The notes under the pieces: model-generated | What the model saw: only the letters and a program-made list of their open reading frames with translations | Database searches by the model: none | What the model was told of the DNA's origin: nothing | In this document: in pieces, positions 5,497-63,331 of the stretch | Position numbering within the stretch: position 1 is the first letter of the stretch | How the letters are laid out: each line of letters begins with the position of its first letter | DNA from: a virus | IMG/VR virus record: IMGVR_UViG_3300043399_000446 | Location: 22,133-86,132 of that record | Length of the DNA: 64,000 bases | Reading direction: 5' to 3' (one strand) | Made by a program: the position numbers and the translations under genes

Positions 5497-6174
5497 TTAT
5501 TGTTTTTCAAGTTTAAAATTTAAACCCAATGCCTCAGGTATTGACAGAGCTAGTATAGTATAATCGCTTTCGTTATCATAGCCTATATTAAAGCTATCTC
5601 TTATCCAATTTTTAGTCCAACCTGTGTTATAATTTAGCCAATACTTCAAGCTTTTATTAGGATAAAATTTAGTTGAACTGTTTTCGTATCTCTCAAAAAA
5701 ATCTTTGAGATTACGATAAAAGTCATTACTAACTTTAGTATTTTTAAAATACACCCTATATTTTGTAGGGGGATTCCTTTTAAAATATTTAATTCCGCCA
5801 GGTACATTAGCTATAGCTTGTTTATATACAGGTTGATAATTTTCAAAATAGGGGGCTATCTGTTTAAGAATTTCAATGTCGTTTGCGTAGACTGACAAAG
5901 AATTCATACATAATCTTATGCTTGCACCCTCAGTATTAAAATTACTTTTCCACAAAAAGTAATTTTGAAATGTAGTTGTACGCTCTTTAGTCCAAGTAAA
6001 GGATGAAGCTATCCATCCTTTACTTCTCAAGAAAGCAATTCTATCTTTTAACGCTTTGAAATCCTTACAGTACCTAGTTCTACCTATGTGAGATATCTTA
6101 AATACGACCTTGAATTCGTATTTTTTATAGTATAGTTCTGTCTTGTTTTCAGTTATTAACTTGAATGATGCCAT
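5497..6174 (-). CDS. Hypothetical protein, aromatic and basic
   Basis: 225 residues rich in Tyr, Phe, Lys and Asn; no recognised motif. Segments such as YFKRNPPTKYRVYFKNTK and KFYPNKSLKYWLNYNTGWTKNW suggest a compact alpha/beta protein that may touch nucleic acid, which is inference. The start overlaps the 3' end of the ClpA-like gene by 26 bp, so translation is probably coupled to it. Confidence 0.6.
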   Translation of the reverse strand: MASFKLITENKTELYYKKYEFKVVFKISHIGRTRYCKDFKALKDRIAFLRSKGWIASSFTWTKERTTTFQNYFLWKSNFNTEGASIRLCMNSLSVYANDIEILKQIAPYFENYQPVYKQAIANVPGGIKYFKRNPPTKYRVYFKNTKVSNDFYRNLKDFFERYENSSTKFYPNKSLKYWLNYNTGWTKNWIRDSFNIGYDNESDYTILALSIPEALGLNFKLEKQ

Positions 6175-8416
6175 TGCTATCCACGCTTGCAGTATGTTTC
6201 ATAGACATTACAAAGTCTACTTTGCCTTCTTTCATTACAGCAGCCACATTTGCGTTTTTGATCTTATCAAAAATAATCTTCTTACTTAGTGGAACTCTGA
6301 TTAGCTCATCGATCTTGCGTGCCAGGGGTCTTGCACCCATTTTCTTGTCATAGCCCACTTCTGCCAAATACTCTACTACTGGCTCTGTGATAGTAAGCGA
6401 AATGTTGTGCTTGTCTGCTAATTGCTTACGCAAATCTTCAGTAAACTTGATTACGATTTTCTTGATTGCTAGTGTATCAAGCTTGTTGAATTTACATACT
6501 AGATCAATACGATTTCTGAATTCTGGCTTGAAGAAGTCCTTTAGAGCTTTGTCATCTTCGCCCAATTTATCCTGACTACCGAAACCAATATTCAATCGTT
6601 CGCTATCGCTTGAACCTAGATTGCTGGTCATGATGATGATCGTATTCTTACATGATACTACTTTACCATTGCTGCCTGTGATCTTACCTTCATCTAGAAT
6701 TTGTAAGAAGATGTTGAAGATATCAGGATGTGCTTTTTCAACCTCGTCAAATAACATGATTGCGTGAGGATTCTTGCTAAGATCATTAATTAGTCGTCCA
6801 CCGCTTACTTGACTGTCGTTGAAGCCAACATAGCCAGGTGGGGGTCCAATCAATGACGATACAGCATGTTTCTCGCCAAACTCGCTCATATCATATTTGA
6901 GTAATGGCATGTCTAAGTTTTTACTTAGTAGTTTAGCCATTTCAGTTTTACCTGTACCTGTTGGTCCTAAGAACAAGAAACTACACATTGGCTTAGTTTC
7001 GTTGCTGATGCCAGCAAATGAAACATAAACACGCTCTAAGATTTCTTGTACGGTAGCATCCTGACCAAATAGCTTGTTCTTTACATTCAACTCTAAGGTA
7101 GAGATACGATCATAATTGTCACTTTTTAGCTTATCGGCAGGAACACCTGTAAACTTCTCTACTTGTTCGTAGATCAATTCTTTAGTGATGATAGCGCCAT
7201 GATTTTCTGCTACGCGCTGTTTAGCACAGGCTGCGTCAAGCAAGTCAATACTCTTGTCAGGATTTTTACGATCATGGATGTATCGTGCAGAGCTATCTAC
7301 TGCTGCCTTGATAGCCTCTTCAGTGATTTCAACATTATGAAACTCATTGAGGCGTTTGCTCAAGCCTGATAGAATCTTGATTGTAGATTCTTGACTTGGC
7401 TCATCAACGGATACCCGATAGAATCTACGCATTAGTGCGCGATCTTTCTCAAAGCTTTCGTAGAACTCTTCCCATGTTGTGCTTGCGATGACTTTGAGTG
7501 TGCCCTTAGTGATAGCGGGCTTAATCATGTTAGCAAAGTCGATAGAACCCCCTGTTGAATTACCTGAACCACGCATAGTATGCGCTTCGTCAATAAACAG
7601 AATAGCTTTCTTTTTAGTATTAAGTGCTTCAATAACTGCTTTTACTTTTTCCTCAAAGTCTCCGCGATACTTGCTACCCGCAAGCAATGAACCAATTTCA
7701 AGTGAATACACTTCATGGTCGTATAAAAACTCTGGGCATTCTTTTTCATAAATGCGTTTTGCTAATCCTTCTGCGATAGCAGTTTTACCTACGCCAGGAT
7801 CACCTACCATCAATACATTGCTTTTGAACTTCTTAGCTAATACATTGATAATATCTTCTAATTCATCATTACGACCAATTAGTGGTTCGATTTTATCTTC
7901 ATGTGCTAATCTTGTTAGATTAATAGTATATTCATCTAATACTTCGTCAGCTTGATTTTCAGTCAACTTAGTTGTGTATTCACTACCCTTATAGTGCTTT
8001 TGCCAATACTGAACAAACTCATTTTTGTTGACGCCATATTTCATTAGAAAGTAATGTGCGTGACTATTACCCTCGGAGATAATGCTTAAAAATACATCAA
8101 TAGTAGTAACCTGATTGCGATTAGTGAATAATACTTGCGTAACCGCCCTATTCATTACACGCTCTAATGAATTAGTCCTACGAGGTTCCACTGGGGTCGC
8201 GGTTGTCACGATAGAATGTAAACTATCCACATAAGCTGTTAGTTCGTTGATAAGCATATCTGCTTCAGCACCAAAATGTGCCAAACATTTTTTGAAGGGT
8301 TGATGCGATACTAGAGCTAAAGCAAGATGCTCTACGGTACAATATTTGTGGCTTCTTTCTTTCGCCAGTTCAATGGCTGCTTCAATGATGGCTTCAATTT
8401 CGGGTGAGTTTTTCAT
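6149..8416 (-). CDS. clpA: ClpA-like AAA+ unfoldase
   Basis: 755 residues with the full ClpA order: N-terminal Clp repeat domain (about 1-140), first AAA+ module with Walker A GDPGVGKT (about 204-211) and Walker B ILFIDEAH, second AAA+ module with GPTGTGKT (about 483-490) and IMLFDEVEKAH, then a D2 small domain. There is no long ClpB-type middle coiled coil. In the second module NIGFGSQ keeps an IGF tripeptide at the position of the ClpP-docking loop, so it could feed a ClpP peptidase. No clpP gene is in this window; use of host ClpP is inference. A J-domain gene lies 2 bp upstream. Confidence 0.9.
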   Translation of the reverse strand: MKNSPEIEAIIEAAIELAKERSHKYCTVEHLALALVSHQPFKKCLAHFGAEADMLINELTAYVDSLHSIVTTATPVEPRRTNSLERVMNRAVTQVLFTNRNQVTTIDVFLSIISEGNSHAHYFLMKYGVNKNEFVQYWQKHYKGSEYTTKLTENQADEVLDEYTINLTRLAHEDKIEPLIGRNDELEDIINVLAKKFKSNVLMVGDPGVGKTAIAEGLAKRIYEKECPEFLYDHEVYSLEIGSLLAGSKYRGDFEEKVKAVIEALNTKKKAILFIDEAHTMRGSGNSTGGSIDFANMIKPAITKGTLKVIASTTWEEFYESFEKDRALMRRFYRVSVDEPSQESTIKILSGLSKRLNEFHNVEITEEAIKAAVDSSARYIHDRKNPDKSIDLLDAACAKQRVAENHGAIITKELIYEQVEKFTGVPADKLKSDNYDRISTLELNVKNKLFGQDATVQEILERVYVSFAGISNETKPMCSFLFLGPTGTGKTEMAKLLSKNLDMPLLKYDMSEFGEKHAVSSLIGPPPGYVGFNDSQVSGGRLINDLSKNPHAIMLFDEVEKAHPDIFNIFLQILDEGKITGSNGKVVSCKNTIIIMTSNLGSSDSERLNIGFGSQDKLGEDDKALKDFFKPEFRNRIDLVCKFNKLDTLAIKKIVIKFTEDLRKQLADKHNISLTITEPVVEYLAEVGYDKKMGARPLARKIDELIRVPLSKKIIFDKIKNANVAAVMKEGKVDFVMSMKHTASVDSNGIIQVNN

Positions 8417-21649: not shown

Positions 21650-23149
21650 TTAAATTGGTAAGGCATAAGTTATTAGAACTCTACCCGAACCTCCTGATGC
21701 CCCTGCAGCAGTGTAATATAATTCTACATTAATGGGGGTTCCCACTGGACCCACTGATGAAGGAACGTCGTATCTACCTACTGTTGTCAAGTCGCTATCA
21801 CCGGCACCAGCAAATTGAGTAGGAATACCTTGTGGACCCACAGTGATAGTTGCTCCAGTGCCACCGCTGAATGCTGAATCAACGATAATGCTTACTGTGT
21901 CAACAATAGCATTTGCAGGTAAAGTAAATGCACTTATTGTAGCATTTGAACTGACAACGAAAGGTGTGCTTACAACCGTCATCATACCTACAGGCTGTGG
22001 TGCACTCCAACTTAAGTTTCCATTTCCGTCAGTTGATAAGAATTCACCTGCATTTCCGCCTGAAATCTTGACATTAGAAACAGGACCTAGGTTAGCAACA
22101 CCATCTACTGTTAGACCTGTTAGAGTTCCAACAGAAGTAATGTTTGTCTGTGCATTTGTTAATATAGTACCACTTAAATTACCAATGAATGTGTCAGCGC
22201 GTACATTACCTAACGTTGTCCAGTTAACAACTTCATTGTTGATACTTACTTGACTACCAAATGCAAATTCACTATTACTTGTGTCCCAGCCCATAAATGC
22301 TGTTGCACCTGCATTACCAGCAGTGTTCCAATAGTTTAATGCAGTACCAACGTCATAATTAGTGTTAGAAGTTAGTGGACCACCATTAGAACTTTGTAAT
22401 TGTATGATTGGATCTTTTACTGACAATGTATCAACATTAATGTATGTTAAATTACCATTGACAGTTAAATTACCACCAACTAAAACGTTACCTTGAACAT
22501 CTAAATTTGTTAATGTACCAACGCTTGTAATATTAGGTTGTGCATTTGACGTAACAGTCTCAGCTATTAAAGCGTTTGCTACCTGTCCTGTTATATTAGC
22601 AGCCGTAATACTTGTTAGTAACGCACCATTTCCGCTTAAGTTTGTAGCGAATAATGTATTAGTATCAGTGTTAAATGTGAAGTTAGCACTAGCACCAAAT
22701 GAACCGCTACTGTTGAACTGAACTTGTGTATTATCACCACCTGCCTGTTGGAAATCAACAGGAGCGCCATTTGCGTAATAATAGTTATCAGTTAGAATAC
22801 CACCTGTACTTATATTACCTGTAACGTTAGCATTTCCTGATACACTTAGATTTGCCAGTGTACCAAGTGATGTGATATTGGGTTGTGAGCTTGAAGTAAC
22901 TGTATCAGCAACTAATGCATTTGCTACTTGACCAACAATGTTAGCTGCTACAATGTTAGTTAAGCCTGCTGCATTACCTACGAAAATACCTTCAGATGCA
23001 GTAATATTACCTGCAGTTAGGCTTACAAAAGAGGTATTTGCACCATTTTTTACTTCAAGATTACCTGAAGCATTTTGTAGCAAAGGACCCGTAAATCCTA
23101 ATTGGAAATTACCTCCTTGGGTACCTTTAATTTTAATCCATGTACTCAT
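21650..23149 (-). CDS. Repeat-rich tail-fibre-like protein 2
   Basis: 499 residues. Repeats such as ANIVGQVANALVADTVTSSSQPNITSLG alternate with a non-repeat insert (DTLSVKDPIIQLQSSNGGPL ... NAGATAFMGWDTSNSEFAFG) that resembles domains used near fibre joints. The last 100 residues (SVIVDSAFSGGTGATITVG...RVLITYALPI) form a beta-rich tip also found at the end of fibre protein 3 in diverged form. Probably a trimeric fibre; partner proteins not identifiable. Confidence 0.75.
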   Translation of the reverse strand: MSTWIKIKGTQGGNFQLGFTGPLLQNASGNLEVKNGANTSFVSLTAGNITASEGIFVGNAAGLTNIVAANIVGQVANALVADTVTSSSQPNITSLGTLANLSVSGNANVTGNISTGGILTDNYYYANGAPVDFQQAGGDNTQVQFNSSGSFGASANFTFNTDTNTLFATNLSGNGALLTSITAANITGQVANALIAETVTSNAQPNITSVGTLTNLDVQGNVLVGGNLTVNGNLTYINVDTLSVKDPIIQLQSSNGGPLTSNTNYDVGTALNYWNTAGNAGATAFMGWDTSNSEFAFGSQVSINNEVVNWTTLGNVRADTFIGNLSGTILTNAQTNITSVGTLTGLTVDGVANLGPVSNVKISGGNAGEFLSTDGNGNLSWSAPQPVGMMTVVSTPFVVSSNATISAFTLPANAIVDTVSIIVDSAFSGGTGATITVGPQGIPTQFAGAGDSDLTTVGRYDVPSSVGPVGTPINVELYYTAAGASGGSGRVLITYALPI

Positions 23150-58036: not shown

Positions 58037-58417
58037 ATGTCTAATTCTGATTTCTTTCAAAAGCTTAGTCAAAATCATCCGTTTATTACGGTTTGCCATT
58101 ATGCCAGTCAGGATTATGTAGGTATAGTTCAAAATCGTGATGATATAGTCACCACAATTTATGATTATGGTGCTATAGTTGATCCTATAGTAAAAGAAAA
58201 ATTCTTAGAATTAGGCGAAATATGGTGGTGGGAAAGTAATAGGCTTATACCAATAAACTTGTTTTTGAAAGAAGAGTGGATTATATTCAAGCCATTCTTA
58301 AGAACTTTTAATAACAAAAGCTTAGTAATACTACATGGGCCTGCTACTTCAATGAATGAACTAAGCAAACGTAAAAGCAAGCGCCGTAGTATTACTCTTG
58401 TAAAACGTTTACCTTAG
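58037..58417 (+). CDS. Conserved hypothetical protein (126 aa)
   Basis: 126 residues: FFQKLSQNHPFITVCHYASQDYVGIVQNRDD, KEKFLELGEIWWWESNRLIPINLFL and KRKSKRRSITLVKRLP. I recall the WWWESNR..PIN block from T4-like marine phages; function unknown. A small beta protein with a basic tail. Its end overlaps the convergent deformylase gene by 9 bp. Confidence 0.65.
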   Translation: MSNSDFFQKLSQNHPFITVCHYASQDYVGIVQNRDDIVTTIYDYGAIVDPIVKEKFLELGEIWWWESNRLIPINLFLKEEWIIFKPFLRTFNNKSLVILHGPATSMNELSKRKSKRRSITLVKRLP

Positions 58418-58903
58418 ATTTTTCTTTCTACGCTTTTGCGCCATCTGTAAACTAAGTTTGCCTACTTTTTCAACAAAGCAATGCCCATTCAAGTGGTCCA
58501 ATTCGTGCTGAAATACCCTTGCCATCAAATCTTCAAACTCTTCTTCTTTAGTTTCGCCATTAATAGTTTGATAGCGAGCTATGATTTTCTTGTATCGCTT
58601 GACATGTAGCCATAATCCTGGAAAGCTTAGACATCCTTCAATATCTTGTACTTCTCCCTCACCTGAAACTAATTCAGGGTTGACACAAACAATAAGCTTT
58701 TCTTCGTTACCCATAATAAGTATGCGCTTGCTGATACCTACTTGTGGAGCAGCTAAACCTATACCACCTTTTAGAAACATTGTTTTAGTCATAGCTTTGA
58801 CTAATTCTTCTAAGTTAGGTTCTACAATCCAGTTATCAAAATCATATGGCTCTGCTGCCTGCTTTAATACTGGATCATTCTCATCTACTAATTGTAATTC
58901 CAT
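58409..58903 (-). CDS. def: Peptide deformylase
   Basis: 164 residues with all three motifs: GGIGLAAPQVG, EGCLSFPG (Cys metal ligand) and QHELDHLNGH (HExxH-type His pair). It removes the N-formyl group from new proteins. Marine phages often carry a deformylase with a short C-terminus, and here only a basic tail follows motif 3. It shares one base with the Pol III alpha-like gene upstream. Confidence 0.93.
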   Translation of the reverse strand: MELQLVDENDPVLKQAAEPYDFDNWIVEPNLEELVKAMTKTMFLKGGIGLAAPQVGISKRILIMGNEEKLIVCVNPELVSGEGEVQDIEGCLSFPGLWLHVKRYKKIIARYQTINGETKEEEFEDLMARVFQHELDHLNGHCFVEKVGKLSLQMAQKRRKKNLR

Positions 58904-59472
58904 TATTTTCCCTCTAATATATTCATATGTACTACTACAAGATGACTATAGGCAACAGCATGTGCCTTTTTAAATGAATAACCATTCTCATCTTTGTCCC
59001 AAACTGTTTTACTAACTACATTCCAAGGTTCACCAATAAGATGCTTTTTTGATGGTCTGATTATAGCCAAGAACATCGCTAAACGGGGTATACTATTCAC
59101 AGGCTCAGGCATCTTTCGCAAACTATCATAATGATTGCTAAGATGAATAAGTTTCTCTACAAAATGCCTATCTTTTAGTTTGTCCCAATTAGGCTCATCC
59201 ATCAATTGAATTAAATGTAGTTCATCCCTAACTTGCTCATATACATGAACATTCAACAAGTCTAATTTGAAATATCCACGCTTATCCATTTCCCTATAAT
59301 CTACAGCACACATATCAGTAATAGGATTATAGGGCACTGGCTGTACATAAACTCCAGTAGCATGTTTTCTGATAGGGTTAGCTTGTAACATAGCAGCGGG
59401 AGTATGCTCAATTATCTCCAATAACTTATTTCTATCAGGAAGATCAATGTCAATATCTGACTGAAATTTCAT
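58903..59472 (-). CDS. Split DNA polymerase III alpha-like protein, C-terminal piece with catalytic aspartates
   Basis: 189 residues. SDIDIDLPDR (residues 5-14) aligns with PDFDVDF of DnaE, which holds two catalytic Asp; HATGVYVQPV with HAGGVVIAP; GYFKLDLLN with GLVKFDFLG, whose Asp is the third catalytic residue; MFLAIIRPS with ALVALFRPG; and SFKKAHAVAYSHLVVV with GFNKSHSAAYALVSY. It begins exactly where the protein at 15.0-15.5 kb ends. Large loops and all C-terminal DnaE domains are missing. It overlaps the DexA-like exonuclease gene by 4 bp (ATGA). Confidence 0.75.
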   Translation of the reverse strand: MKFQSDIDIDLPDRNKLLEIIEHTPAAMLQANPIRKHATGVYVQPVPYNPITDMCAVDYREMDKRGYFKLDLLNVHVYEQVRDELHLIQLMDEPNWDKLKDRHFVEKLIHLSNHYDSLRKMPEPVNSIPRLAMFLAIIRPSKKHLIGEPWNVVSKTVWDKDENGYSFKKAHAVAYSHLVVVHMNILEGK

Positions 59473-60017
59473 AACAATCCATGTTTGATAAGCTTACGAT
59501 AGGCATCTTGAACCACAATAGCCTGATGTTCAGCATCTTCTACAGCCTTGTGTGTAGTTCTAGTGCCATATTTTTTATCTTTCAAACTTACTCCAGTGAT
59601 ATCAAATAATGTACGTGTGTCTCTAGCGTTATAATACGGCCAAGGAATAGCTAAGTCAACATTACGGAAACCAGTTTCTAAAGCCACGATGTCGAAGCCA
59701 GCACCATTGCTCCAAATAGCTCTACGATTCCAGCAAAACTTGTAAAGTAATTCCAAGCATTCTTTGAATGGCAGTCTACCAACTTCGCTAAATGCTTCGT
59801 TCATAGCATCAGGACTTTGTGTAGCCCACCATTTTATAGTCTCATCGTCAATAGTGCGATTGTATAATTCTGTTTGTTCTTCTATTGTGGGTTTTAGCTC
59901 TAACTTTTCAACTATACCCATGCCTTTAGGATCAAATCGTACAGCACCAATTGAGAGTATTACACAGTTTGGTTTTGTATCTAATGTCTCTAAGTCTACC
60001 ATTATATCATTTGCCAT
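59469..60017 (-). CDS. dexA: 3'-5' exonuclease, DexA/DnaQ-like
   Basis: 182 residues of the RNase H-like exonuclease fold. NDIMVDLETLDT supplies the ExoI DxE, WSNGAGFDIVALE the ExoII Asp, and HKAVEDAEHQAIVV the ExoIII HxxxxD. The DDETIKWWATQSPDAMNEAF helix is typical for phage exonuclease A (DexA) relatives. It directly precedes the Pol III alpha-like piece with a 4-bp overlap, which recalls the alpha-epsilon pairing of Pol III, though interaction is inference. Confidence 0.85.
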   Translation of the reverse strand: MANDIMVDLETLDTKPNCVILSIGAVRFDPKGMGIVEKLELKPTIEEQTELYNRTIDDETIKWWATQSPDAMNEAFSEVGRLPFKECLELLYKFCWNRRAIWSNGAGFDIVALETGFRNVDLAIPWPYYNARDTRTLFDITGVSLKDKKYGTRTTHKAVEDAEHQAIVVQDAYRKLIKHGLL

Positions 60018-60018
60018 A

Positions 60019-60366
60019 TCATTCCCATCTCAATTTAAATAATACTAATTCTTGGTCACTTGCCAAGTAAATTCTGTTTTTAGCATCCCTATCATGTTTC
60101 CAACACCAATGTTTATTTTGACTTTTAGGCGTGGTATTAGCCGTATTGAGGACTATATTTTGTATATTAAAATTCTTATCGGTAATCCACTCATCAACTT
60201 CTTTACTCGCACCCCAAGTTTGCCAACACCATTCACGCCATTCAAAAAACAAATTGTCTGGTGCACGATTTTTGAATAAATTATAAGGTGCGTTAACAGA
60301 AATTAGATACTTGAAGTCGGGATATCCAGTGTATCTACGATCAACTTTCTTTATATCTAAACTCAT
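60019..60366 (-). CDS. Array paralogue 9 (LRW-motif protein)
   Basis: 115 residues from ATG MSLDIKKVDRRYTGYPD; ATGA overlap with the upstream gene. FFEWREWCWQTWGASKEVDEW is the WC helix and IYLASDQELVLFKLRWE the closing motif of the array family. Last member, directly followed by the DexA-like gene. Function unknown. Confidence 0.7.
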   Translation of the reverse strand: MSLDIKKVDRRYTGYPDFKYLISVNAPYNLFKNRAPDNLFFEWREWCWQTWGASKEVDEWITDKNFNIQNIVLNTANTTPKSQNKHWCWKHDRDAKNRIYLASDQELVLFKLRWE

Positions 60367-60704
60367 TGTTTCAATTTTTGCCACACTATTGCCTTTTCTA
60401 ATCTGTCTTTGAATTCTTCTGCTTGCTGTATATTATTAAATCCTACACCTGATATCTTGAATGTGCGCTCTACCCAATTACTATAGTTCCTACTTTTATC
60501 CTGTAGCCAAATACTATCATTTACCCATGTGATCCAATGTTTTTTAAGATCCAAATCTGTTTCAACTAATCCTATAACATAACATTTCATTTCACCAAAT
60601 ACGGTATCTAATATCCTCATAGTGGGATCTATATCCCGTAGAGTTTTACCATGACTCCAAACTACAAGATAATTACCATCGAAAGGTTCTATAATTATGT
60701 TCAT
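60363..60704 (-). CDS. Array paralogue 8 (divergent)
   Basis: 113 residues: IIEPFDGNYLVVWSHGKTLRDIDPTMRIL ... SGVGFNNIQQAEEFKDRLEKAIVW. The ending lacks a clear LRW and only loosely fits the family, so membership is uncertain; size, position and the ATGA overlap with the next gene upstream agree with the array. Confidence 0.6.
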   Translation of the reverse strand: MNIIIEPFDGNYLVVWSHGKTLRDIDPTMRILDTVFGEMKCYVIGLVETDLDLKKHWITWVNDSIWLQDKSRNYSNWVERTFKISGVGFNNIQQAEEFKDRLEKAIVWQKLKQ

Positions 60705-61006
60705 TGAAATTTAAGAACATAAAGTATGTACTTTTGTTCATCTACTATTTGGTAGTCCCCACCGATATTACCTTCTACAAAGTTTAATTTGATGCCATAT
60801 TTGTCAGTGATCCATTCTTCAAATTCATACGCATCAAAATTCGTATGCTCATTTTGAAATTCATCACGAAGTTTTTTTAATGTTGCCCAAAAATCATTTC
60901 TACGCTTTCTATCTGAATGAAGAGCCTCAATGGCTTCTTGGTCGCCCTGCATAACAGCATTAACCAAACTTTGTACCCTTTTTAAATAATCTTCGTCATC
61001 TTCCAT
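60701..61006 (-). CDS. Array paralogue 7
   Basis: 101 residues. An N-terminal helical segment (LKRVQSLVNAVMQGDQEAIEALHSDRKRRNDFWATLKKLRDEF) is added before the family-like part AYEFEEWITDKYGIKLNFVEGNIGG and the degenerate ending YQIVDEQKYILYVLKFQ. Overlaps the upstream gene by 25 bp. Confidence 0.62.
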   Translation of the reverse strand: MEDDEDYLKRVQSLVNAVMQGDQEAIEALHSDRKRRNDFWATLKKLRDEFQNEHTNFDAYEFEEWITDKYGIKLNFVEGNIGGDYQIVDEQKYILYVLKFQ

Positions 61007-61206
61007 TCGTGGTCACGGCCCCATGTTAGCATGAATAGAGTATAATCTTTTTCTTCGGAAAATTCAATAAGTAATTTATCATCCTGCACTTTTCCGGTAA
61101 AATTCACCTTATGTTTATCTGCCCAAATATACAATCTAATCTCTATTGTGCTTTTAACAAGATCCCTCAGTGCTTTATCTTCGGAGGGTAAATAAAATTC
61201 AATCAT
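60982..61206 (-). CDS. Array paralogue 6
   Basis: 74 residues from ATG MIEFYLPSEDKALRDLVKS; ATGA overlap upstream. IEFSEEKDYTLFMLTWGRD is the closing motif (LTW for LRW) with a short tail behind it. Confidence 0.65.
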   Translation of the reverse strand: MIEFYLPSEDKALRDLVKSTIEIRLYIWADKHKVNFTGKVQDDKLLIEFSEEKDYTLFMLTWGRDHEWKMTKII

Positions 61207-61436
61207 TCCCACCTCAATTTGGCTAATAATGCCATATCTTTATTCCATATTCTTATGATGTATAGTGTAGGTTCAGCAAAGATACTATTATTGTAATCTG
61301 TTCCTAAAGGTAATAATTCCCAGCCATCACCGTAGGCTGACCAAAAATGGTTATTTATTTTGAACTTACCCACATTATTTTCAAGCCAAGAAATTATTTC
61401 CTGCCTACCACCCCTAGCCTTTACTTCATATGGCAT
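61203..61436 (-). CDS. Array paralogue 5
   Basis: 77 residues: GGRQEIISWLENNVGKFK (helix with central Trp and Gly) and LYIIRIWNKDMALLAKLRWE (closing motif). Starts 1 bp after the upstream stop codon. Confidence 0.68.
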   Translation of the reverse strand: MPYEVKARGGRQEIISWLENNVGKFKINNHFWSAYGDGWELLPLGTDYNNSIFAEPTLYIIRIWNKDMALLAKLRWE

Positions 61437-61437
61437 A

Positions 61438-61692
61438 TTACCACCTTAAGGCACACAATAAATAATCTCGTTCGTATCTGAATTTTATACAGAATGAGTT
61501 GTCGTCAAATGCCCACCTACAATGACGTTCGCAATTTGGAATGCTATCATAGATCCAATCTAAAATATCACCGTACCAATTTACAAATTTACTATGTGTG
61601 TTTATTTCAGGTAGAGGTATAGTATGTTGATACCATCCAGGTTTGACATCACACCAATCTTTTTGTGTTTCGTACCACTCTAACTTTTTCAT
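61438..61692 (-). CDS. Array paralogue 4
   Basis: 84 residues from ATG MKKLEWYETQKDWCDVKPGWY; ATGA overlap. FVNWYGDILDWIYDSIPN and SFCIKFRYERDYLLCALRW are the two family blocks. Confidence 0.68.
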   Translation of the reverse strand: MKKLEWYETQKDWCDVKPGWYQHTIPLPEINTHSKFVNWYGDILDWIYDSIPNCERHCRWAFDDNSFCIKFRYERDYLLCALRW

Positions 61693-61961
61693 AACCAACG
61701 CATAGTGAACAATAAAGCATCCTGTTCGTTTTTAAAATACATCATTGTATAATTAAAATCTTTTTCTAATATCCATAAAATATCGTTATCTGTACAACTT
61801 TCTTCAACAGAACATATATCGCCGGGACCGTAATAAGTATAAGATACTATGTTACCCTTACCTAAATAAGTTTCACAAAAAGAAATAATATCTTCCAGTT
61901 GATTATAAAAATTTTTATATAAACTGATTTTCTCCCAACCTTGAGGTATATCTATTATCAT
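61689..61961 (-). CDS. Array paralogue 3
   Basis: 90 residues from ATG MIIDIPQGWEKISLYKN; ATGA overlap. QLEDIISFCETYLGKGN and YTMMYFKNEQDALLFTMRWL are the family blocks, closely similar to paralogue 2. Confidence 0.68.
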   Translation of the reverse strand: MIIDIPQGWEKISLYKNFYNQLEDIISFCETYLGKGNIVSYTYYGPGDICSVEESCTDNDILWILEKDFNYTMMYFKNEQDALLFTMRWL

Positions 61962-62182
61962 AACCAACGCATACAAAAGAAAAGGGCGTCTTTTTCAAAT
62001 TTAAAATAGAATGTATCAGAGTATCTATGGACCCAACCATATCTCCAAATACATTTTTTATTTCTACCACCTTCACCAAAGTTGTCTCTACACCACTGAA
62101 TGACTTCGTGTAAATCATCGTGAGTATATGGTTTTATTGATAGCTGAACTCTAAATTCATGCTTGCTCTTACGTTTAATCAT
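61958..62182 (-). CDS. Array paralogue 2
   Basis: 74 residues from ATG MIKRKSKHEFRVQLSIKP; ATGA overlap. DLHEVIQWCRDNFGEGG and TFYFKFEKDALFFCMRWL are the clearest copies of the WC-helix and closing MRW/LRW motifs. Confidence 0.7.
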   Translation of the reverse strand: MIKRKSKHEFRVQLSIKPYTHDDLHEVIQWCRDNFGEGGRNKKCIWRYGWVHRYSDTFYFKFEKDALFFCMRWL

Positions 62183-62619
62183 GACCACCTCGTCACGAAC
62201 CAAATATAATCAGCATCATCCATGAAAGCAAAGAAAATAAAATCATACCCGCCGATATCATTCATAGAATAATCAGTGGGATTATCAGCATTATTAGGAT
62301 CAGTAAAGAAGTTGTTAGGTAACACCCTATGAATATCAGTGCGCCATTTACCTACACAATTACTTTTACACCATTCTTTTAGTTTCTCATAGCCATCAGT
62401 CCAATCGGGGTATCCTATAAAGGCTTCACTGGTGGCATCTTTTATAACGTAGACATAAGGATAATTCATGTAGAAAGATTTAGTTGTTCCTGCCCAGTTA
62501 TTTATGTCGGGGTCAAACCTGTGATTATACTCTGCCCAATTTTTACAACCGTGCCTTTTCAAAAATCTTTTATCTTTCCACCTTAAATAGTTACTATATA
62601 ACCTACCAATCAAGTACAT
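62179..62619 (-). CDS. Array paralogue 1 (longest)
   Basis: 146 residues. An added N-terminal part (YLIGRLYSNYLRWKDKRFLKRHGCKNWAEYNHRFDPD) precedes the family region DGYEKLKEWCKSNCVGKW and the ending DFIFFAFMDDADYIWFVTRWS. First gene of the array, directly after the zinc-finger gene. Confidence 0.68.
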   Translation of the reverse strand: MYLIGRLYSNYLRWKDKRFLKRHGCKNWAEYNHRFDPDINNWAGTTKSFYMNYPYVYVIKDATSEAFIGYPDWTDGYEKLKEWCKSNCVGKWRTDIHRVLPNNFFTDPNNADNPTDYSMNDIGGYDFIFFAFMDDADYIWFVTRWS

Positions 62620-62620
62620 T

Positions 62621-63331
62621 TCAGTACCCAGCCAACCTTAATATTTCTGTGACCTGCGCCACATGCTCGGGATTTTTCTTGAATTTGATAGCCCACAATT
62701 CAGGATTGATATAATCCATAATCAATCTTTCTTGATCTGGTGTAATCTTGTTCAAAAAATCCACACCACTATTACTATGGTACATAATCCAGGGGCTGAT
62801 TTTTCCTGTGGTGATTAGATAGCAAATCTTATTACTATTGCCATACCTCAATACGTCATTGTTTTTTATGTGTAGGTCTTCTGCCAAACTAATGGTAGTT
62901 TCAATACTGCGAGCAATAGCATCAAGTGGATCTTCTACGCGCAAATATTCGCACAGAAATTTTGTGTATATTACATCACTACACCAATCATCAATCTTGA
63001 TTTTGTTTTTGATAAGCCAATCAATGAACCTACTGGGGTTCAAACAATTTATATCGATACAATATATGCCAAATTTTATAAAGGCAATATAGTAAGGCGA
63101 CTTGATGAATTCTTCGTAGGGTTTTACTTTTTTAGACGCTGTGTTTTTCTTCATGAACTGAAGAAATAGTTGATATGCTATACGATTACCTGGCTTATCT
63201 TTTTCTTGCCAGCGATGTTTGTATTCACATATATGACGGATAACCGTAGTTTCGCGGACAAATGTTCGCCCACAAAACTCACATCCAAATTTAGATGTTT
63301 CCTTGGTCTCGTTCGTATTGCTTGATTTCAT
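62621..63331 (-). CDS. Zinc-finger protein of unknown function
   Basis: 236 residues. The N-terminus FGCEFCGRTFVRETTVIRHICEYKH is a C2H2-type finger (CxxC...HxxxxxxH). The rest is helical (KPYEEFIKSPYYIAFIKFGIYCIDINCLNPSRFIDWLIKNKI; ISPWIMYHSNSGVDFLNKI). I recall such finger proteins beside clamp-loader genes of marine T4-like phages; role in replication or late transcription is open. Overlaps the gp62-like gene by 41 bp. Confidence 0.65.
   Translation of the reverse strand: MKSSNTNETKETSKFGCEFCGRTFVRETTVIRHICEYKHRWQEKDKPGNRIAYQLFLQFMKKNTASKKVKPYEEFIKSPYYIAFIKFGIYCIDINCLNPSRFIDWLIKNKIKIDDWCSDVIYTKFLCEYLRVEDPLDAIARSIETTISLAEDLHIKNNDVLRYGNSNKICYLITTGKISPWIMYHSNSGVDFLNKITPDQERLIMDYINPELWAIKFKKNPEHVAQVTEILRLAGY

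Follow-up and report, generated by a model that had tools for sequence, protein, structure and literature searches.

Nine very small genes that follow one another on one strand of a phage genome raise the question of whether they belong to one family, how they are held together, and what such a set could do for the phage. The window, by which we mean the whole stretch of 64,000 nucleotides analysed here, corresponds to positions 22133–86132 of an 86,132-base IMG/VR virus record, and its genes for a tail sheath, a gp15-like sheath stabiliser, a DnaB-type helicase, a Toprim protein and a peptide deformylase place its source among the T4-superfamily jumbo phages. The array occupies 60019–62619 on the minus strand, between two other minus-strand genes: a phrog_11058 gene with a C2H2-like motif upstream (62621–63331; PHROG E=4e-61), which we employed as an anchor, and a gene for an Rv2179c-like 3'-5' exonuclease downstream (59469–60017; Pfam PF16473, E=4.6e-36; PHROG exonuclease, E=1.5e-44). 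The nine consecutive one-strand genes described in an earlier note on this DNA are thus confirmed, with conserved genes on either side. The anchor was found at 55 loci in IMG/VR and in 87 phage records, with homologues of approximately 35% identity in PA5oct and other jumbo phages.

The surroundings also include a phage-encoded peptide deformylase gene near the array (58409–58903, minus strand; PF01327, E=1.5e-42) and, further away, a large gene for an ATP-dependent protease (6149–8416, minus strand; phrog_4871, E=1e-236). One further record, L002 (IMGVR_UViG_3300047548_000588), carries an array identical to that of the window, and stems from either this virus or a near relative of it.

A C-terminal domain in most of the nine proteins

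Since an HMM seeded with orthologues of the window genes would be circular as proof of membership, we judged membership with hhalign against a separately built profile. It comprised 37 proteins, of which Sinorhizobium phage Phosso supplied 30 and contig G018 seven, with zero sequences from the window's group of arrays. The proteins of the two neighbouring conserved genes, analysed as controls, scored at most 6.4. Cassette 1 (146 aa, 62179–62619), in which the domain follows an N-terminal extension, scored 96.4; cassette 4 (84 aa, 61438–61692, ATG at 61692) scored 97.4 and cassette 9 (115 aa, 60019–60366, ATG at 60366) scored 95.6. Cassettes 2 (74 aa, 61958–62182, ATG at 62182) and 3 (90 aa, 61689–61961, ATG at 61961) both reached 98.0, values that are not mutually independent because the two were merged into one family alignment. 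Judging from these profile matches, five of the nine genes surely encode a common C-terminal domain that ends in F..(D)..F.LRW (the LRW domain). Orthologues of cassette 1 are present in L003, L005, G005 and G008, and those of cassette 4, at 40–71% identity, in L003–L005, G003 and G004.

Two more genes probably encode the same domain: cassette 5 (77 aa, 61203–61436), which ends in AKLRWE and scored 80.7 over a short aligned stretch, and cassette 6 (74 aa, 60982–61206), which carries the motif FSEEKDYTLFMLTW followed by 11–12 extra residues, scored 80.6, and is 39% identical to G003_3 over 28 aa. Cassette 6 runs some 12 residues beyond its LTW motif and into the next gene, the two overlapping by 25 nt, which looks like the loss of a normal stop codon at the junction. 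Cassette 7 (101 aa, 60701–61006), which ends in YVLKFQ and has no Shine-Dalgarno sequence in its tail, is an uncertain member, since its score of 33 rose to 96 only with a profile that included its own orthologues. Gene 8 (113 aa, 60363–60704), which had been considered a doubtful paralogue, scored 3.4 and is a non-member; it is a conserved neighbour in relatives, and its orthologues in L003, L005, G003 and G004 are all devoid of an LRW end. The tandem paralogy suggested earlier is therefore upheld by the independent profile, and the common C-terminus holds for five clear and two probable members, is uncertain for the gene at 60701, and does not extend to the gene at 60363.

AlphaFold2 modelling of cassette 2 from 89 sequences yielded a ββαββα fold (pLDDT 85.4, pTM 0.71), and the model of one relative displayed a C-terminal helix-strand-strand-helix that matches it. 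With regard to differing folds, which the earlier note had named as a refutation, cassette 2 is thus the window member covered by a confident model, and the others were covered by profile comparison. A search of PDB folds with the LRW-domain model returned nothing significant, the best match being eIF1/SUI1-like (E=0.15). Window members had no convincing family match in Pfam or PHROGs, and a comparison of these proteins and their relatives with PADLOC-DB was equally unconvincing, with only chance-level matches among the relatives. In blast, array members matched a methyltransferase-like protein and one further phage protein (30–34% identity over short stretches), matches that were judged to be due to chance. 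The idea that the proteins mimic DNA was rejected, as their pI values range from 4 to 10 (4.1–10).

The closest viral matches are small proteins of uncultured phages. At most of the 55 anchor loci, small same-strand ORFs ending in F..(D)..F.LRW lie directly downstream of the anchor, and 12 whole records, when searched by profile, contained between 1 and 19 members each, nearly all at this one place; the comparison of copy number in relatives that the earlier note had called for thus revealed strong variation. Arrays with the same motif at the same place in dozens of phage contigs, together with orthologues that evolve as coding sequence, indicate that the array is not a product of chance. Among cultured phages, relatives were detected by profile only, with 32 family matches in several clusters of Phosso, four in Atu_ph07 and three in PA5oct; the same type of search found zero members in 121Q and SCTP-2, and tblastn with the LRW domain alone gave no match in 50,697 phage records.

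Junctions, cassette turnover and selection

In the window's group of arrays, the LRW end is spelled TTG-AGG-TGG-NNA-TGA, and the same bases thus encode the Shine-Dalgarno sequence and the start of the next gene. Among dereplicated cassettes of this group, the Arg codon of LRW is AGG in 46/61 cases, as compared to 26/246 elsewhere in the same genes (p=3e-23), and the Leu codon is skewed towards TTG (p=3e-7). The Phe and Asp of the conserved motif displayed no significant codon skew in the same set, and shared nucleotide ancestry alone is thus insufficient to explain the AGG and TTG bias. Indeed, AGG is present in 45 of 57 cassettes in which the next start lies within a few nucleotides, and in one of four otherwise. 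Calculated pairing to the anti-Shine-Dalgarno sequence reached -8.4 kcal/mol versus -4.7 kcal/mol for synonymous shuffles (p=2e-9), and the final codon ends in A in 54/60 cassettes, generating ATGA. In Phosso the protein motif F..DA..FKLRW is present and the AGG bias is absent (3/11), suggesting that the protein motif is older and that its use as a ribosome-binding site is a feature of the window's group.

When window starts were reassigned to the ATG overlapping the stop of the preceding gene, ATGA overlaps were found at six junctions (starts at 62182, 61961, 61692, 61206, 60704 and 60366); the overlaps noticed earlier are real, but they number six and not five. The junction before 61436 reads TAA-T-ATG, and that before 61006 is a 25-nt overlap. 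AGGTGG is present at only three window junctions, all read on the minus strand. At junction 1/2 (62179–62193), ACG AGG TGG TCA TGA encodes a TRWS end, with AGGTGG at 62185–62190 and an ATGA restart. At junction 4/5 (61438–61449), TTA AGG TGG TAA, followed by T and ATG, encodes an LRW end, with AGGTGG at 61441–61446. Junction 5/6 (61203–61217) reads TTG AGG TGG GAA TGA and encodes an LRWE end, with AGGTGG at 61209–61214 and an ATGA restart. Other genes of the window use ribosome sites of the AGGA/AAGG type.

Comparison of related arrays pointed to whole cassettes as the units of change. The arrays of G002 and G005, whose flanking proteins are 96–98% identical, are colinear with whole cassettes gained or lost, and in the arrays compared, cassettes end at the LRW junction stretch. 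At 20 boundaries from five array pairs, taken only where the neighbouring genes differ, mean nucleotide identity was 0.81 across a gene's final 15 nt, and fell to 0.35 and then 0.28 past the stop codon. The 5' boundaries are less clean on average, with an identity of 0.47 before the start and 0.64 after it. In one case, non-orthologous neighbours have approximately 30 nt in common, ending in TTGAGGTGGTCATGA, which would fit a role of the junction as an exchange site. We also observed a recombinant-looking cassette, L080 (G004, 6762–7085, with orthologues in G006 and G007), in which the N-terminal ~31 residues resemble the family carrying capsid fragment II, described below (E=0.005), and the remainder is of the G003_10 type.

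The high divergence between members had been taken as a sign of diversifying selection, a suggestion that our measurements do not support. Pairwise dN/dS values of orthologous cassettes are mostly 0.1–0.4 and never above 1, the highest (0.75) stemming from one 72-aa pair with very few changes; dS is near saturation in the window pairs, whose values are thus rough. Flanking core genes yielded 0.01–0.16. Cassettes thus evolve faster than core genes yet under purifying selection, and their divergence reflects old paralogy and the turnover of whole cassettes.

Capsid-protein fragments in the cassettes of relatives

The first clue to a link with the capsid was an array member of L007 that matched the major capsid protein (MCP) of 121Q-like phages. 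This stretch, fragment I, corresponds approximately to MCP residues 51–100 and was found in six arrays; its core is unvarying among them, and it lies in separate proteins of 112–136 aa that also carry the LRW domain. It is up to 68% identical over 41 aa to jumbo MCPs from IMG/VR (E=1e-18), matches Pfam Gp23 (E=6e-13) and aligns to residues 95–135 of T4 gp23 (E=1e-4); its closest matches in cultured phages are jumbo MCPs of the CBB/GAP32 kind. The stretch is nearly invariant across jumbo MCPs and diverged in the cassettes. AlphaFold2 predicted the LRW domain of a fragment I cassette with confidence as an ordered unit, and the capsid peptide as disordered.

Fragments II and III are each individually weak matches. 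Fragment II (approximately MCP residues 160–217) is present in six arrays; its N-terminal profile matched 80/80 fetched jumbo MCPs, best in the same region (E=4e-5 to 0.016), and below E=0.3 it matched nothing among 6198 proteins besides MCPs and sister cassettes. Fragment III corresponds to residues 336–376 of the Phosso MCP, fused to a Phosso LRW domain (E=5e-4 against Phosso's own MCP). Judging from these alignments, the MCP-matching cassettes of relatives are fragments and not MCPs. The dN/dS values of the cassettes with fragments I and II are 0.11–0.37. When 94 cassette families were compared to the proteomes of Phosso, 121Q, two large environmental jumbo contigs and the array contigs, no convincing donor other than MCP was found among the matches listed, family members and orthologues aside. 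The window's nine genes have no detectable MCP fragment, and none matches Gp23 (PF07068).

Two side observations concern fragment I. Phosso (PV764938) encodes a 226-aa protein with no LRW end (182175–182855, plus strand) that carries it and is 41% identical to Phosso's own MCP over 41 aa (E=3e-6). In addition, host genomes yielded one weak match to a fragment I cassette (29%), in a Bradyrhizobium sp. CSS354 contig (L283), perhaps a prophage.

Possible functions and competing explanations

Fragment I most likely overlaps, on the basis of its alignment, the Gol region of T4 gp23, which we take to span about residues 93–121. The likeness is one of sequence region only, since each cassette is a separate protein with an LRW domain and not part of a capsid protein. 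Gol comprises 29 residues in the first quarter of gp23 and is the part of that protein with the highest conservation; it binds EF-Tu and is the activator of the Lit protease (PMC3014915). MCP also triggers the CapRel-SJ46 defence (PMC9712102) and staphylococcal Thoeris (PMC11312562); both papers describe the host side, and since both systems recognise MCP, MCP-like decoys would have a target. In the literature searched, no phage decoy built from an MCP fragment came up. Taken together, the capsid fragments of relatives and the standing of MCP as a known defence trigger lend indirect support to the proposal, made earlier for the array, of an anti-defence or host-takeover role.

We propose, with about even confidence, that the locus is a hypervariable cassette operon of jumbo phages encoding shuffleable adaptor or decoy mini-proteins directed at host factors, capsid sensors being some of these. 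Each cassette would combine a constant small C-terminal domain (ββαββα, ending in LRW), acting as a docking or scaffold part, with a variable N-terminal part that binds host factors. As the sequences show, the LRW codons of this phage group form the Shine-Dalgarno sequence and, through ATGA, the next start, so that translation can pass from cassette to cassette. A cassette inserted between two junctions would then be expressed at once and supply the signal for the next gene, which would render the array expandable and shuffleable by recombination. As the N-termini of some relatives are flexible MCP-related peptides, those cassettes would probably be decoys or baits for capsid-binding host proteins, with EF-Tu and defence sensors of the Lit/Gol, CapRel or Thoeris kind as candidate targets. 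Displayed on a small folded domain, an MCP peptide could occupy such sensors or EF-Tu without activating them. A point against this reading is that the Gol region activates Lit: a cassette displaying it might damage the phage if it acted as a trigger and not as a blocker. With AGGTGG at only three junctions of the window and no MCP fragment in it, this mechanism is read from relatives; its nine genes would form a comparable toolkit aimed at different targets, and we extend the adaptor model with exchangeable N-termini from the MCP-fragment cassettes to the whole family more weakly. A bolder and distinctly speculative version is a self-propagating 'display library', in which peptides from the phage's own defence-triggering proteins would blind host sensors: three MCP stretches would be grafted onto a mini-domain whose last codons are the next ribosome-binding site, and recombination at the coded junction would let arrays gain, lose and exchange cassettes.

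The alternative that survives best, which we regard as possible though clearly less probable than the cassette operon, is that tandem duplication produced an accessory cluster of the ordinary kind, encoding host-takeover proteins. Its junctions would reflect normal coupled translation without a role in exchange, and the common C-terminus would be just the conserved part of the fold. Purifying selection on the cassettes agrees with such a cluster, as do the Phosso motif without AGG bias, where the amino-acid motif probably came first, and the spread of pI values, which leaves no common DNA-mimic character. It accounts less well for a codon bias that is confined to the R and L of LRW and depends on a neighbouring start, and for the drop in identity at the stop codon; the capsid fragments would be unexpected. 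Accessory clusters of the T4 superfamily, which are hypervariable regions of host-takeover and anti-defence genes, do resemble the array in their small, fast-turning genes, overlapping operons and fixed place between core genes, but here most genes have one common domain, the junction consists of a coded Shine-Dalgarno sequence with ATGA, and relatives fuse capsid pieces. By analogy, integron gene cassettes are likewise exchangeable units that are ready for expression and linked by a short sequence common to all; here that sequence is coding and is itself the ribosome-binding site, and no integrase was seen among the annotated window genes.

It is unlikely that the phage's own particle is the target of the MCP-related cassettes, through binding of the capsid protein or its chaperone in autoregulation of head assembly, or through head decoration. 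Three MCP stretches are used (the N-terminal region, ~160–217, and the C-terminal YKG..YVPL region), and segments of this sort contribute to contacts between subunits in the HK97-type fold, which would suit this role. The divergence within cassettes of a stretch that jumbo MCPs keep nearly invariant speaks against it, as does the fact that the three family proteins of PA5oct have no mass-spectrometry note in its record, whereas many structural proteins of that phage have one there. The MCP fragments might also be tolerated recombination leftovers, but an array that is merely a recombination sink, in which pieces land and are kept by chance, is very improbable: high turnover between close relatives and the damage to the LRW tail of G002_9 at a junction would agree with it, but the low dN/dS of the fragment I and II cassettes largely refutes it. 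The retention of fragment I with its invariant core in six arrays also speaks against it, as does MCP being the sole donor detected against jumbo-phage proteomes among the matches listed.

Searches of mainly open-access literature retrieved nothing on such arrays or on MCP-fragment proteins; as far as these searches show, neither the coded junction nor the capsid-peptide cassettes have been described. If the cassette operon is real, a phage could assemble accessory proteins into a set that is ready for expression, and reorder that set, with no recombinase devoted to the task; the capsid peptides would be a first sign that phages use parts of their own capsid protein as independent modules, and how phages answer capsid-sensing immunity would become directly testable. 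Neither Pfam nor PHROGs has an annotation for the family, and giving it a name would account for some of the 'hypothetical' genes in these jumbo phages. In Phosso (PV764938), approximately 55 unannotated candidate members were detected after one profile iteration, with clusters at 3–14, 95–100, 113–118, 166–177, 348–349, 369–370 and 377 kb.
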